Of a stretch of DNA of 64,000 bases, positions 51,779 through 60,164 are shown in pieces; position 1 is the first letter of the stretch; every line of letters begins with the position of its first letter. Where the stretch lies: contig JAOTWP010000006.1 of the NCBI GenBank assembly GCA_029862975.1, positions 1 through 64,000 on the forward strand, written 5' to 3'. This DNA comes from Acidobacteriota bacterium (GTDB lineage Bacteria; Acidobacteriota; Thermoanaerobaculia; Multivoradales; JAHEKO01). The notes under the pieces were generated by a model, which did no database searches, was not told the origin of the DNA, and saw nothing but the letters and a program-made list of their open reading frames with translations. Position numbers and translations under genes: made by a program.

Positions 51779-53476
51779 CTAGCGGGCCATCAGGACCGTC
51801 AGGCGGTGGGGCTCGGTCGCGGACGGGTGATGCATGAGGAGGTCTTGCTTGCCGTCCCGGTCGAGGTCCACCAGCCAGCTGTTTCGCTCGTCGCCCGGCA
51901 CGGTGACCGCCAACGCTCGCGGCGCGGAGGCCAGCAGCTCCGGCCCGGGCACGCCGAGATAGACGTGCAGCTCCTCGCGGCTCTTCCCCACCAGCAGGTC
52001 CGACCGTCCGTCGCCGCTCACGTCGCCCACCAGCACCGCCGGGAAGAACCCGGCGTCCCGGCCGCCGCGCGGGTCGAAATCGGTCGTGATCCGGCGGCGG
52101 ACGGTGGCCCGGTCGGGGTAGAGGCCGTCTGCGCCGCGGTACAGCTCGAGATCCATCCCGAGGGAGCCGCCGAGCAGCGCGCGGATCATCCCGCCGATTC
52201 CCGTCCTGACCCTGCCGAACGCGAAGTCGACCTGGCCGTCGCCATCGAAGTCCTCGAACCACGCGGCCGAGTATCCCCATGGCTGCCCGCCCGGCGGCCG
52301 GATCGCCGTGCCGGCCTCCCGCGCGAACGAGGTCCCGCCGGGCGCCGGTGCGCCGAAGTGCACCTCGTACAGGCTGCGCTGTCGCAGCAGGCTCCGGCCC
52401 TCGAGCGAGAGCGTCACCAGGTCGGCTACGCGGTCGCCGTTCAGGTCGCGGAAGGAGTGCAGCACCGTCCGCCTGGAGCTCGCTCGGAGTCCGAGAATGA
52501 GCCGCATCGTGCCGGCGTCGCCGAGACCGAACAGGAGCGAGTAGGCCCCGTCGGAGTCGAACGCCACGCCGGTCGTGAAGGTCTCGGCCACCGGATCAAA
52601 CAGCCCGTCCGCGTCCTGGTAGTGAACGTCGAATTGATCCTCGTGCCAGAACACCAGGTCGCCACGGCCATCTCGGTCGTAGTCCACCTCGTGCATCCGG
52701 CCCAGGTACCAGGGGGCGGTCAGGGCGCTGATCCCCACCTCGCCGTAGCTGCGCCTGGCTCCGCGGGCGATCGCGTCGCGAAACGGCTCCGGAGGGCCGA
52801 GTCTCACCGGAGCGGCGAACCCGCCGTCGCGCTTCTGGACGAGCACGCGGAAGCCCTCGAGGTCCGGGAGGATCAGGTCGTCGCGGCCGTCGCCGTTCAC
52901 GTCCCGGGCCACGTCGAGGTGGGGGATCTCGCCCTCGTCGACCGGCCCCGCCGGCTCGCCGTCCCCGTAACGCAGCCCGGCGGGCGTCGGGTTGTAGCTC
53001 GTGGCGACTTCCACCAGCACGCGCTCCGTCGCCGAGTCCGGATCGAACCAGCTCAGCCGGCCAGGCTCGTGGGTGATCAGCCGCTCGCGTCCACCGATGC
53101 CGGCCACGTCCACGAAGGAGACGCCGGGGCGCAGCGCGGCGTCGACCTTCTCGGCCCACCCACCCTCGCCGAACGCGTAGATGCGCACCAGGCGCCCCTC
53201 ATCCTCGTCGACGCTCACCACGGCGACGTCCGCGACCGCGCCACCCAGAAAGAACCCGGTCAAGACGGTCTGGTACCGCTCGGCGCCGATGACGACCTCG
53301 AACCGCTCGAAGAGGTCGTCCGCGGGCGCCGCGACGTCAGCCGTGGCGGCTGCCGGCAGGAGGGCCCCCAGGGCAAGCGCGGCGCCAAGGCTGCGTCGCG
53401 CCCCGCCCCGGCCGCCGGGGCTCGAGCGGGGTTCGGCGGCAGGAGACGTCACTGCTCTCTTCTCGGGTGCGCTCAC
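51779..53476 (-). CDS. Secreted FG-GAP/VCBS-repeat protein
   Basis: DVNGDGRDDLILPDLEGF, DYDRDGRGDLVFWHED, DLNGDRVADLVTLSLEG, DFDGDGQVDFAFGRV, DVSGDGRSDLLVGK, DLDRDGKQDLLMHHP; signal peptide. GTG start. Confidence 0.88.
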   Translation of the reverse strand: MSAPEKRAVTSPAAEPRSSPGGRGGARRSLGAALALGALLPAAATADVAAPADDLFERFEVVIGAERYQTVLTGFFLGGAVADVAVVSVDEDEGRLVRIYAFGEGGWAEKVDAALRPGVSFVDVAGIGGRERLITHEPGRLSWFDPDSATERVLVEVATSYNPTPAGLRYGDGEPAGPVDEGEIPHLDVARDVNGDGRDDLILPDLEGFRVLVQKRDGGFAAPVRLGPPEPFRDAIARGARRSYGEVGISALTAPWYLGRMHEVDYDRDGRGDLVFWHEDQFDVHYQDADGLFDPVAETFTTGVAFDSDGAYSLLFGLGDAGTMRLILGLRASSRRTVLHSFRDLNGDRVADLVTLSLEGRSLLRQRSLYEVHFGAPAPGGTSFAREAGTAIRPPGGQPWGYSAAWFEDFDGDGQVDFAFGRVRTGIGGMIRALLGGSLGMDLELYRGADGLYPDRATVRRRITTDFDPRGGRDAGFFPAVLVGDVSGDGRSDLLVGKSREELHVYLGVPGPELLASAPRALAVTVPGDERNSWLVDLDRDGKQDLLMHHPSATEPHRLTVLMAR

Positions 53477-53548
53477 ATGTTCCTCCTCGGGGTCGGGACG
53501 GGAGCCGGTCGCGGCGACGGCTCCGACGACTCTGGAGCGATGGGCATG

Positions 53549-53564
53549 AGCAACGGACGTGCCA
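53549..53564 (-). promoter_or_regulatory. Sigma-54 (-24/-12) promoter for the FG-GAP gene
   Basis: Minus strand TGGCAC-GTCCG-TTGCT, preceded by C; matches consensus YTGGCACGrNNNTTGCW except at the degenerate R position; about 73 bp upstream of GTG start at 53476. Confidence 0.75.
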
Positions 53565-53626
53565 GCCGCCGGGACGGCGGATCCGGCCGGGTCTGGCTTC
53601 GCTCGACGGCCCGAATGGGAACCTGC

Positions 53627-53665
53627 TGTACATCTCATGCACACCATACGTGCTCGCGATGTACA
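53627..53665. promoter_or_regulatory. 39-bp imperfect inverted repeat, candidate enhancer/operator for the sigma-54 activator
   Basis: TGTACATCTCATGCAC-ACCATAC-GTGCTCGCGATGTACA; 13 of 16 arm positions complementary; begins 63 bp upstream of the -24 element. Confidence 0.65.
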
Positions 53666-55305
53666 CTCGGCGAATGTCGTTGCCGGGTCACCGCGACCTC
53701 CTCGAAGCGACCGCCGAGCTGACCTACTGCAACCCGTTCCTTCGCGAGCGCGTCGCTCTCGAGCGCCGCGCCCTGGGGCGGGCGTTCGAGCACCACGGCG
53801 AGGTCTGGCACCCCGACGAGCTGACCGCGCCCAACCCCAACGTCGTCCGCATCCAGGAGCGCCTCGAGACGGCGGTGCCGGCGTGGAGGAGCGAGCTGCT
53901 GGAGCACGGCGCGCCTTCGCGAGAGGAGCTGCGGCTCTATCGCGACGTCGTCTACTACACGATCTACAACCGCTGGCAGGCGGATCTCCTCGCGCTGGTG
54001 CTGCGCCCGGAAGGCCCGCGGAGGGTCGCGCTGTGGACGGATTTCGAGGCCGGGCACGCGTTCCTCCTGCCCCCGGAGCTCCAGCTCGAGGGCCAGGCGC
54101 CGGCCGATCTCGTCTTCGCCTGGTTCTTCCAGCTCCGGCGCGCCTTCCACCACGTCTTCCACAGCCTCCACGGCTCGTCGCGCCCCGTCGCGGAGCTCCG
54201 GGCCCAGGTCTGGCAGTCGATCTTCTCTCACGACATGCGGCGCTTCCGCCGTGGTCTCTATTCGCGCATCGGCGATTTCACGACCCTGATCACCGGCCCT
54301 TCGGGGACCGGCAAGGAGCTCGTGGCGCGCGCCATCGGCATGTCCCGCTTCATTCCCTTCGACCCTCGCCGGGCGGCGTTCGTCGAGGACTTCCGCTCCT
54401 CCTTCATCGCCCTCAACCTCGCCGCGCTGTCGCCGACGCTCGTGGAGTCGGAGCTCTTCGGGCATCGCAAGGGCTCGTTCACCGGAGCCATCGAGGACCG
54501 CAAGGGGTGGCTGGAGACCTGCTCGCCGCTGGGATCGGTGTTCCTCGACGAGATCGGCGAGATCTCGCTGGACCTTCAGGTCAAGCTCCTGCGGGTCCTG
54601 CAGACCCGCGCGTTCCAGCGGATCGGAGACACCACCGACCGCCGCTTCGAGGGCAAGCTGATCGCGTCGACCCATCGCGACCCCGAGGAGGAGATGCGGG
54701 CGGGACGAATGCGACCCGACTTCTACTACCGGATCTGCTCCGATCTGGTCGCCACACCTTCGCTGCGCCGACAGCTCGCCGCTGCGCCCGAAGACCTCGC
54801 GAGCCTCGTCCAGCTCATCGTCACCGGCCTCGTCGGCGACCGGGACGTGGCCAGCGTGACCGCCGAGATCCTGGACTGGATCGAGTCCCGGCTCGGCGTC
54901 GACTACGCCTGGCCCGGGAACTTCCGCGAGCTCGAGCAGTGCGTGCGCAACCTGCTGATTCGCGGCAGCTACGAGCCGGCGGCGAGCCCGGCGCCCGCCG
55001 CGTCCACGATGAGGGCGGATCTGGCCTCCGAGGTCGCCGCCATGAAGCTCGATGCCGAAGCCCTTCTCCGGCGCTACACCACCCTGGTGTACTTCCACGC
55101 CGGCAGCTTCGTCGGCGCGGCACGGCGGCTCGGTTTCGATCGCCGCACCGTCAAGGCGAGGATCGACCCGGAGTATCTCGCCCGGCTGCGCGCCGCCTCG
55201 GAAGCCCCATCCGCGCCGCCAGACGGAACCGCCAGACGGAACCGCCAGACGGAACCGCCCGGGCCCCGGCCGGCGGAAGAGGGTGGCGGCGGGCTTGCTG
55301 GTTGA
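53659..55305 (+). CDS. Sigma-54-dependent transcriptional activator (AAA+ with Fis-like HTH, non-receiver N-terminal domain); alternative start 53674
   Basis: FTTLITGPSGTGKELVARAIG (Walker A), ESELFGHRKGSFTGAIEDRKGWLE (GAFTGA loop variant GSFTGA), GSVFLDEIGEISLDLQVKLLRVLQ (Walker B), WPGNFRELEQCVRNLLI, C-terminal SFVGAARRLGFDRRTVKARI. Confidence 0.92.
   Translation: MYTRRMSLPGHRDLLEATAELTYCNPFLRERVALERRALGRAFEHHGEVWHPDELTAPNPNVVRIQERLETAVPAWRSELLEHGAPSREELRLYRDVVYYTIYNRWQADLLALVLRPEGPRRVALWTDFEAGHAFLLPPELQLEGQAPADLVFAWFFQLRRAFHHVFHSLHGSSRPVAELRAQVWQSIFSHDMRRFRRGLYSRIGDFTTLITGPSGTGKELVARAIGMSRFIPFDPRRAAFVEDFRSSFIALNLAALSPTLVESELFGHRKGSFTGAIEDRKGWLETCSPLGSVFLDEIGEISLDLQVKLLRVLQTRAFQRIGDTTDRRFEGKLIASTHRDPEEEMRAGRMRPDFYYRICSDLVATPSLRRQLAAAPEDLASLVQLIVTGLVGDRDVASVTAEILDWIESRLGVDYAWPGNFRELEQCVRNLLIRGSYEPAASPAPAASTMRADLASEVAAMKLDAEALLRRYTTLVYFHAGSFVGAARRLGFDRRTVKARIDPEYLARLRAASEAPSAPPDGTARRNRQTEPPGPRPAEEGGGGLAG
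55216..55254 (+). repeat. Three tandem copies of 13-bp CCGCCAGACGGAA within the 3' end of the sigma-54 activator gene
   Basis: CCGCCAGACGGAA x3 at 55216-55228, 55229-55241, 55242-55254. Confidence 0.85.
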
Positions 55306-55330: not shown

Positions 55331-55579
55331 ATGTCGACTCCATCTCAAGTCAACGTGCACGACGCCAAGACCCATCTGTCGCGACTGCTCGACCGGGCAG
55401 CCGCCGGTGAGGAGATCGTGATCGCGCGATACGGCCGGCCGGTCGCCCGCCTGGTGCCCCTGGCGCCGGCGGCGGAGCCGCGCCGCCTGGGACTGTACGC
55501 GGGGCAGATCCGGCTCCGAAAGGACTTCGAGCGACTCCCCGCAGAGCTGCTCGCCGCCTTCGAAGGTGGTGACGTCTGA
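55331..55579 (+). CDS. Phd/YefM-family antitoxin
   Basis: MSTPSQVNVHDAKTHLSRLLDRAAAGEEIVIARYGRPVARLVPLAPAAEPRRLGLYAGQIRLRKDFERLPAELLAAFEG. Confidence 0.93.
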   Translation: MSTPSQVNVHDAKTHLSRLLDRAAAGEEIVIARYGRPVARLVPLAPAAEPRRLGLYAGQIRLRKDFERLPAELLAAFEGGDV

Positions 55580-56091: not shown

Positions 56092-56613
56092 ATGAGTCCC
56101 TCGAGACGCCAGGAGAGCTTTCTCGATGAGGTCCGGCCCCATCAGGGGATGCTGCGCCGCATCGCCGCGGCCTACGCCGACAGCTTCGAGGACCGACGAG
56201 ATCTCCTGCAGGAGATGCTTCTCCAACTGTGGCGGTCCTACCCCGGCTATCGCGGCGACGCGAAGTTCTCCACCTGGATGTACCGCGTCGCCCTCAACAC
56301 CGCTCTGCTGGGGTGGCGTCGCCGCTCACGGCGGCCGGAAGGCCGGCTGAGCGCCGACGATCGCGTCCTCGACAATCTGCCCGGAATCGACCCGGACGAC
56401 GAGGCGGTCCGCGCGCTGTACACGGCGATTCGGGCCCTGCCCGGCGTCGATCGGGCGATCGTCGCGCTGTGGCTCGAAGGTCACTCCTACCGGGAGATTG
56501 CCGCCATCACCGGACTACGCCGCTCGAACGTCAGCGTGCGGCTGGTCCGCCTCAAGGAGAAGCTGCGCGCTTCGGTCGAAGGCGAACCGGAGCCGCGAGC
56601 GGCGCAACAATGA
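56092..56613 (+). CDS. ECF-type RNA polymerase sigma factor
   Basis: SFEDRRDLLQEMLLQLWRSYPGYRGDAKFSTWMYRVALNTALLGWRRRSR...LPGVDRAIVALWLEGHSYREIAAITGLRRSNVSVRLVRLKEKL. Confidence 0.92.
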   Translation: MSPSRRQESFLDEVRPHQGMLRRIAAAYADSFEDRRDLLQEMLLQLWRSYPGYRGDAKFSTWMYRVALNTALLGWRRRSRRPEGRLSADDRVLDNLPGIDPDDEAVRALYTAIRALPGVDRAIVALWLEGHSYREIAAITGLRRSNVSVRLVRLKEKLRASVEGEPEPRAAQQ

Positions 56614-57311: not shown

Positions 57312-57479
57312 AGCCTCCGCTCTCTCGCCCCGGCTCTCGGCCGCCGAATCCCGCCGCGGACGAAGGCCGCCGGACAGGCTATGCAAGGACCGAAAAAGGG
57401 CGTAGCGTCCCTCCCTGTTTTCTCCGCGGCCGGCGGATGGTCTGCCGGCACGCCTCCGGTGAAGACCGGAAAAGAGGAG

Positions 57480-60164
57480 ATGCACTTGTATCGACCGAGG
57501 TTTTCGAGTGGGGTTGTTTTCCTGGCTTCGTGCTGCGTCGCTGCGGCCGCGTCCGGTGCTCCCAGCCCGGGCCTGGGGGCCGCCGACGTCGCCTACCGAT
57601 ACGTGGCGGCGAACCAGCAGAGGCTGGGTCTCGATGGCTCCGACGTCGGCGAGATGGTCGTGTCCAGCCAGGTCGCCAGCGAGCACAACGGCGTGACCCA
57701 CGTCTACCTGCAGCAGCGCTATCGCGGGATCGACGTGTACAACGGAATCCTCAACGTCAACGTCCTCGCGGGCGAGGAGGTCCTCGGCGCGGGCAACCGC
57801 TTCGTCAGCCGCATCGCGGCAGCGGCCGGCCGGCAGAATGCTCGCCGGACGGCCCTCGAAGCGACGCTCGTGGCGGCCGGCCACCTCGAGCTCGCCGCCC
57901 GGCAGCCGTTCACGGTCCTCGACACCCTGGGCGGGGCGTCGCGCCGGACGACGATCTCCGACGGCGGCGTCGCCGCTCGGCCGATCGACGCGCGGCTGGT
58001 GTGGTACCCGGTCGACGGCGCCGTGCGCCTCGCGTGGAGCCTCGAGATCGAGGAGGCGGCGAGCCCGCACTGGTGGATCGCCTTCGTCGACGCGACGACC
58101 GGCGCGTTTCTGGGCGCGGAGGACCTGACGATCCAGGAGTCCGCCGCCGCCATCGCCGGCGCGATCGAGCGGGCTCCGGCGCGGCGGGTGGCGACTCCCG
58201 CGGCTCCGCCCGCCCCGCTGGCGGACGGCGCCAGCTACAACGTGTTTCCGCTGCCGCTGGAAAACCCCAACGACGGCGGCCGCCAGCTGGTGACCGACCC
58301 GGCGGAGCTCACGGCCTCGCCCTTCGGCTGGCATGACACCGACGGCGTCGATGGCGCCGAGTTCACGAGGACCCGCGGCAACAACGTGCACGCCTACGTC
58401 GACGCCGAGCTCCCCAACAACGTACCGGATCCGGACAGCGATCCCGACGGCGGGCCCGGGCTGGTCTTCGATTTCCCGCTCGACCTGACCCAGGATCCCG
58501 CGACCTACCGTCCGGCGGCGGTGACGAACCTCTTCTACTGGAACAACGTCATGCACGACGTGTCCTACGCCTACGGCTTCACCGAGGCGGCGGGCAACTT
58601 CCAGGAGAACAACTACGGCAACGGCGGCCTCGGCGGCGACTACGTGCGCGCCGAGGCGCAGGATCGCAGCGGCACGGACAACGCCAACTTCGCCACCCCC
58701 CCGGACGGGAACCGGCCGCGGATGCAGATGTACCGCTGGCTCAGCCCCTTCGCCCAGCTGGTGACCGTCAACTCGCCGCCGGCGATCGCCGGCGTCTACG
58801 TCGCCAACCCCTCCAACAACGGAGGCACGGCCAACGGTCTGACCGCCGATCTCGCCCTCGTGGACGACGGCGTCGCCCCCACGGACGACGCCTGCGAGCC
58901 CGTCGCGAACGATCTGACGGGCAAGATCGCGCTGATCCGGTGGAGCGGGGGGCTGTGCAACTCGAGCGCCTTCGTCGCCAACGCCGCCAACGCCGGGGCC
59001 GTCGCGGCGATCATCATCGACGTCACCGACATCCCGTACACGAACTTCGGGGGTAGCGGCCTGATTCCGTCGGTCGCGGTGGGGCAGACCCACGGCAACC
59101 TCTTCGCGAGCACGCTCGCCGGCGACACGGTCAACGCCACGATCGACGACAACCCCGATTCCGTCGACCGCGACAGCGACCTCGACGCCGGCGTCATCGC
59201 CCACGAGTACGGGCACGGCATCTCCATCCGGCTCACGGGCGGCCCCCTGGTCGTGAACTGCCTCAACAACGCCGAGCAGATGGGCGAGGGGTGGAGCGAC
59301 TGGTTCGCCCTGACCTTGACCGCCGATCCGTCGGACACCGGCTCGATGCCGCGCGGGATCGGGACCTACGTGATCTTCCAGGACCCCGACGGCAAAGGCA
59401 TTCGCAACACGCCGTACAGCACGGACACGAGCATCAATCCGTCGACCTACGCGTGGGTGGCCGATTCCCTGAACGTCAGCCAACCGCACGGCATCGGCTA
59501 CGTCTGGAACACGATGCTCTGGGAGGTCTACTGGAACCTGATCGACCGCCACGGCTTCAACCCCGACGTCTACGCCGACTGGTCGACGGGCGGCAACAAC
59601 CTGGCGATGCAGCTGGTGATGGACGGCTTCAAGCTGCAGGTGTGCCGGCCGGGCTTCGTCGACGGGCGCGACGCCATCCTCCTCGCCGACCTCGTCCTGA
59701 CGGGTGGGGTCAACGAGTGCGAGATCTGGCGAGGCTTCGCCAAGCGCGGCCTCGGCGCGAGCGCCGACCAGGGGCTGTCGACCAGCCGGTTCGACGGCGT
59801 GGAGGCCTTCGACCTGCCGGCCGCTTGCATGGCGGCCGACTTCGGCGGCTTCCAGGCGCCGGTCAGCGATCCGCCGGCGGTCAACCACGTCAACGCGGGC
59901 TCGACCATCCCGGTCAAGTTCCTGTTGAGCGGCGTCGAGGGGCTGCCGCCGGTCGACAACCAGCAGGTCGACTGCGAGACGCTCGAGCCGACCGGTGAGG
60001 TGCCCCAGGCTCCGGCGACGCCCGGCAACACGGGCTTGAAGCGCAAGGGAGACTCCTTCCACCTCAACTGGCAGACCGATCCCAGCTGGTTCGGCACCTG
60101 TCGCAAGCTCACGGTGCGGATTCCCGCGCCGAGCGACGGCGTCGCGTACTTCAGCTTCTTCTAG
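57480..60164 (+). CDS. M36 (fungalysin) family metallopeptidase with PA insert and C-terminal PxKF-like domain
   Basis: Signal peptide; DAGVIAHEYGHGISIRLTGGP...NNAEQMGEGWSDWFALTL; NLFYWNNVMHDVSYAYGFTEAAGNFQENNYG; C-terminal VNHVNAGSTIPVKFLLSG. Confidence 0.92.
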   Translation: MHLYRPRFSSGVVFLASCCVAAAASGAPSPGLGAADVAYRYVAANQQRLGLDGSDVGEMVVSSQVASEHNGVTHVYLQQRYRGIDVYNGILNVNVLAGEEVLGAGNRFVSRIAAAAGRQNARRTALEATLVAAGHLELAARQPFTVLDTLGGASRRTTISDGGVAARPIDARLVWYPVDGAVRLAWSLEIEEAASPHWWIAFVDATTGAFLGAEDLTIQESAAAIAGAIERAPARRVATPAAPPAPLADGASYNVFPLPLENPNDGGRQLVTDPAELTASPFGWHDTDGVDGAEFTRTRGNNVHAYVDAELPNNVPDPDSDPDGGPGLVFDFPLDLTQDPATYRPAAVTNLFYWNNVMHDVSYAYGFTEAAGNFQENNYGNGGLGGDYVRAEAQDRSGTDNANFATPPDGNRPRMQMYRWLSPFAQLVTVNSPPAIAGVYVANPSNNGGTANGLTADLALVDDGVAPTDDACEPVANDLTGKIALIRWSGGLCNSSAFVANAANAGAVAAIIIDVTDIPYTNFGGSGLIPSVAVGQTHGNLFASTLAGDTVNATIDDNPDSVDRDSDLDAGVIAHEYGHGISIRLTGGPLVVNCLNNAEQMGEGWSDWFALTLTADPSDTGSMPRGIGTYVIFQDPDGKGIRNTPYSTDTSINPSTYAWVADSLNVSQPHGIGYVWNTMLWEVYWNLIDRHGFNPDVYADWSTGGNNLAMQLVMDGFKLQVCRPGFVDGRDAILLADLVLTGGVNECEIWRGFAKRGLGASADQGLSTSRFDGVEAFDLPAACMAADFGGFQAPVSDPPAVNHVNAGSTIPVKFLLSGVEGLPPVDNQQVDCETLEPTGEVPQAPATPGNTGLKRKGDSFHLNWQTDPSWFGTCRKLTVRIPAPSDGVAYFSFF

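Follow-up and report, generated by a model that had tools for sequence, protein, structure and literature searches.

Here we describe a region of an Acidobacteriota genome that very probably works as a one-component sigma-54 switch, in which an activator seated at dyads shared by two divergent genes turns on its FG-GAP neighbour. The region occupies positions 51,779 to 55,305 of the window, by which we mean the whole stretch of 64,000 nucleotides analysed. In the mechanism that we propose, the C-terminal HTH of the activator would bind the two intergenic TGTACA-N5-TGTACA dyads, its N-terminal helical domain would sense a cue upon which the AAA+ domain assembles, and this domain would remodel the sigma-54 polymerase poised at CTGGCACGTCCGTTGCT and so switch on expression of the secreted FG-GAP protein; the dyad-bound activator would also limit its own transcription. 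The evidence visible in the sequences consists of the parts themselves, their conservation, strand specificity and helical phase, the co-occurrence of dyads and activator, and the single site in the genome, from which binding by the activator, rpoN dependence, sensing and autorepression are predicted.

The activator and the FG-GAP gene

The activator (543 aa) is encoded on the plus strand (53674..55305) and consists of an all-helical N-terminal domain (residues 1-195, 53674..54258), an AAA+ sigma-54 interaction domain recognised by profile and structure matches (about residues 201-430, 54274..54963) and a C-terminal HTH (about residues 461-496, 55054..55161, ...GAARRLGFDRRTVKARI). Its start is the ATG at 53674, and the sister protein at L031 (79% identical) begins at the corresponding residue. 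The earlier note had taken this gene for an AAA+ sigma-54 activator with GSFTGA, and here the open reading frame, the profile search (PF00158 at residues 201-355, E 7.6e-45, 153 bits against a cut-off of 20.2) and the loop at residues 267-272 of the translation (54472..54489, plus strand) agree; in the 13 closest homologues loop 1 reads GSFTGA, GAFTGA or GTFTGA. The AF2 model of the whole protein has a pLDDT of 91.6, and its AAA+ part resembles the structures of FleQ, LuxO, NtrC1 and NifA. A Pfam search of the C-terminus gave no HTH match, the HTH being assigned from the helices at 461-496 in the model and from residues strongly conserved across 78 homologues. The genome also carries rpoN (G000:C207, PF04552, 216 bits).

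The N-terminal domain, a putative sensor (pLDDT 90.5), has no Pfam or NCBIfam match over its 195 residues, and comparison with the PDB returned nothing significant by sequence or by fold (best Foldseek E 1.7); the Foldseek matches to TetR-type domains, 14-3-3 and armadillo repeats are helical and insignificant and were set aside. No receiver domain was matched in the activator and the N-terminal model is all-helical, so that the protein does not classify as a two-component NtrC-type regulator. The best curated match, RtcR (NF038308), is confined to the AAA+ core (residues 203-429), and identity with RtcR was rejected (182.3 bits against a cut-off of 650, no CARF match and no rtcAB target).

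At the 3' end of the gene (about 55217-55259) three tandem 13-bp units, GGCGGTTCCGTCT on the minus strand, encode a disordered tail (pLDDT <50) that most homologues lack. Directly after the activator, on the same strand, lies an ORF for a Phd/YefM-like candidate antitoxin (55331-55579), and further downstream lie an ECF-type sigma factor (56092-56613, plus strand) and a fungalysin M36 metallopeptidase with propeptide and PA domain (57381-60164, plus strand).

The presumed target gene, on the minus strand (51779..53476), encodes an FG-GAP-repeat protein (PF13517, E 2.5e-18) with a signal-peptide-like N-terminus. Its likely start is the GTG at 53476, preceded by the ribosome-binding site GAGGAGGA (53481..53488, minus strand). 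Upstream of this codon stands CTGGCACGTCCGTTGCT, a near-perfect -24/-12 sigma-54 promoter that matches TGGCACG-N4-TTGCW exactly, a mismatch-free form present in 3 copies in the 4.49-Mb genome. The site had previously been given as 53549-53564; it is real and on the minus strand, and its extent was one base short, the 17 nt being 53565-53549. The distance of about 73 bp to the FG-GAP start was correct, there being 73 bp from the -12 element to the GTG. A longer FG-GAP ORF was rejected as the sigma-54 product since it begins within the repeat described below, upstream of the promoter.

The intergenic dyads and their conservation

The intergenic repeat, TGTACATC...GATGTACA at 53627-53665 (0.03 expected in the window), begins 62 bp from the promoter. 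The earlier note had seen in it one 39-bp inverted repeat, the position of which is as claimed; it is better read as two imperfect dyads of the form TGTACA-N5-TGTACA, 17 bp each and 22 bp apart from centre to centre, because some relatives carry a single dyad. A single 39-bp operator was discarded on the same comparison, relatives showing 17-bp dyads on an 11-bp half-site register, and in them the family unit often consists of overlapping half-sites, one per 11 bp. The main dyad, TGTACATCTCATGCACA (53627..53643), matches 11/12 consensus positions, and the distal dyad, CGTGCTCGCGATGTACA (53649..53665), identified by the repeat search and from relatives, adjoins the activator start. With no more than one mismatch, TGTACA-N5-TGTACA occurs at one locus in the whole genome, between the activator and FG-GAP genes, and among 28 near-consensus sigma-54 sites only CTGGCACGTCCGTTGCT has dyads 30-220 bp upstream. 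The regulon thus looks local, and its description as self-contained is likely, short of certain because the draft genome is 93% complete.

A full-length homologue of the activator was found in 13/99 relatives, including the genome of the window (at least 470 bits, the next match reaching 152 bits). A search of GTDB genomes with the N-terminal domain yielded 141 confirmed stretches, from which 80 loci were retained, and placed the family in Acidobacteriota, Planctomycetota, Verrucomicrobiota, Methylomirabilota, Myxococcota, Hydrogenedentota and other phyla. Counting as dyads those matching at least 10/12 positions, and scoring promoters with a sigma-54 matrix written from the known consensus and not trained, we found a dyad in 53/83 upstream regions against 0.55 in dinucleotide shuffles, and a divergent-strand sigma-54 site in 40/83 against 2.4 expected, the activator strand having 3. 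With homologues clustered at 70% identity, 40/66 members kept the dyad against 0.1 in random genomic segments (it was missing in 26/66 clusters), and 31/66 kept the divergent sigma-54 site against 1.9, with 1 on the activator strand. Loss of the motif in orthologues had been named in the earlier note as grounds for giving up its reading; dyad and divergent promoter are instead kept, well beyond chance expectation, across several phyla, and the recurrence of this layout points to a real, as yet unnamed family of gene switches. Individual members depart from it: L039 has neither dyad nor divergent sigma-54 site, L034 has a perfect dyad and no such site, and the site of L042, an FG-GAP member, is weak (7.8).

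Judged by sequence, the dyad centres are helically phased with the -24 GG: spacings gather around 97, 108 and 119 bp (n=40; Rayleigh R about 0.65 for a period of 11-11.5 bp). The associated p-value is too optimistic, since there is a half-site every 11 bp and the best match was used to pick the register. FG-GAP promoters in the order to which the window belongs carry dyads at the nearer positions, with centres at 61.5 (9/12), 72.5 (main dyad) and 94.5 bp (distal dyad) from the -24 in the window and at 61.5 and 84.5 bp in L031.

Dyads at unlinked genes and rival readings

The dyad search was run over 24 genomes. In G048 the sole other perfect dyad adjoins a strong sigma-54 site, CTGGCACAGCAGTTGCT (62.5 bp, computed from positions), before a lipoprotein gene and an FG-GAP gene whose product is 50% identical to that of the window. 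In G005, where the activator stands beside a VIT gene, dyads lie 61.5 and 72.5 bp (likewise computed from positions) from CTGGCATGTCGGTTGCT, before an unlinked FG-GAP gene. By contrast, 26 FG-GAP genes from 23 genomes that lack the activator have no dyad above 8/12. The earlier suggestion that the activator switches on the FG-GAP gene draws its strength from these copies in trans with the activator and from their absence without it, together with the conservation and phase of dyad and promoter. Extra dyads in other genomes (L191-L196), which have no matching sigma-54 promoter or plausible target, were treated as chance. In two genomes the FG-GAP gene has a small lipoprotein gene beside it, the two genes standing in opposite order and the lipoproteins sharing 44% identity (L190:3188-3620; L031, divergent strand, some 1.8-2.2 kb upstream of its activator); no homologue of it was found in the window. 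In genomes of genus g11 that lack the activator (L203-L222), the FG-GAP gene clusters are preceded by paired TGTTGAC-N3-GTCAACA palindromes with some 27 bp between the two, a conserved and different operator that suggests a regulator swap.

Autorepression was proposed because the dyads lie 9-47 bp before the activator ATG. The activator upstream region of the window has no convincing -35, and in 9/53 dyad-bearing relatives a TACANT within the dyad is separated from TTGACA by exactly 17 bp, so that some family members would, on binding, mask the promoter of their own gene. On this evidence we lean slightly towards autorepression in the window. The same exact overlap, with the usual closeness of the dyad to the activator start across the family, could be taken to mean that the dyad is just an autoregulatory operator or part of a sigma-70 promoter of the activator, the FG-GAP promoter being driven by another enhancer-binding protein; the helically phased spacing to the divergent -24 and the dyads with sigma-54 promoters at FG-GAP homologues that have no adjoining activator gene make this very unlikely. 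Somewhat less probable still is that a different transcription factor occupies the TGTACA dyads and the neighbouring activator uses other sites, for which G001 might speak: in this 97%-complete draft no family activator was found, and yet a dyad, TGTACAGAAACTGTATA, and CTGGCACGTCAGTTGCT precede an outer-membrane-barrel-like gene (L232:1273-1500, G001:C167). The dyad nevertheless tracks the activator family across phyla, its counts elsewhere resembling a reversed-pattern control, and is missing from FG-GAP genes where the activator is absent. A chance origin of the promoter and repeat matches, given GC-rich DNA, is scarcely credible, since although one-mismatch TGGCAC-N5-TTGC sites occur at chance frequency within the window, the conservation far above shuffled and random-genomic controls already refutes it, and strand bias, phase and a second site found blind at an FG-GAP homologue also speak against it.

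Presumed targets of the family and known systems

Returning to the activator as predicted regulator of its divergent neighbour, we scanned 76 divergent proteins and found 22 VIT/VWA proteins, 3 FG-GAP proteins and a diverse remainder. Most of the VIT/VWA proteins have a C-terminal GGG(A)xDP-hydrophobic-basic tail, and the gene that follows is often rhombosortase-like (TIGR03902, 107.9 bits against a cut-off of 84 where tested). G002, of the genus to which the window belongs, shows the VIT arrangement as well, and in G140, from another family of the class, a VIT gene again lies opposite an activator of the family, here truncated. The three FG-GAP members, that of the window included, group as one clade (98/79) in the activator tree, nested in a supported clade that also contains a VIT member, and the simplest reading of these sequences is that the target was exchanged during the history of the family. 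In G021, whose activator has no divergent sigma-54 site, an 11/12 dyad precedes a rhombosortase-like rhomboid gene by about 1 kb (L193:1495-3200, G021:C143), with no VIT gene found near it.

A divergent one-component enhancer-binding protein with a shared site is a known kind of arrangement. In the PspF/pspA system an enhancer in the activator's own promoter region serves both to activate the divergent sigma-54 operon and to let the activator control its own gene, and PspF has no N-terminal regulatory domain. The activator of the window differs in its N-terminal region of about 195 residues, its binding site, target and signal, and identity with PspF was rejected (129 bits against an equivalog cut-off of 443.55, N-terminal region present). 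Six one-component sigma-54 enhancer-binding proteins of Desulfovibrio vulgaris are divergent from their targets (PMC4641369), and as here the activator stands opposite a sigma-54 promoter with a conserved motif between them; activators, motifs and targets are others, and the activator of the window has an unclassified N-terminal domain and a motif common to several phyla. GlyGly-CTERM and rhombosortase form a surface-protein sorting system (PMC3237569), which the divergent operon of the relatives resembles in placing rhombosortase after a VIT/VWA protein whose C-terminal tail is glycine-rich; unlike GlyGly-CTERM targets, the FG-GAP protein of the window lacks that C-terminus. An association of sigma-54 with the control of a cell's exterior has been described (PMC3162934). 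Neither von Willebrand nor FG-GAP targets are mentioned in a sigma-54 regulon survey of 2025 (PMC12316311), and our literature search for sigma-54 with VIT/VWA or with rhombosortase found no link.

The activator family, its sensor domain, the cross-phylum enhancer code and the link to the VIT/rhombosortase operon thus appear to be undescribed. We consider it possible, if short of probable, that the N-terminal helical domain represents a novel type of sensor and that the family, widespread as it is, regulates cell-surface proteins (VIT/VWA with rhombosortase, or FG-GAP), having kept its enhancer code across phyla and exchanged its target. These results provide a predicted DNA-binding code, an enhancer spacing and a target list for an uncharacterised family of sigma-54 activators in poorly cultured phyla. 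They would also tie to sigma-54 a surface-sorting operon with rhombosortase, one for which the literature searched gave no regulator, and may offer a natural case of a regulator that keeps its site and swaps its target.
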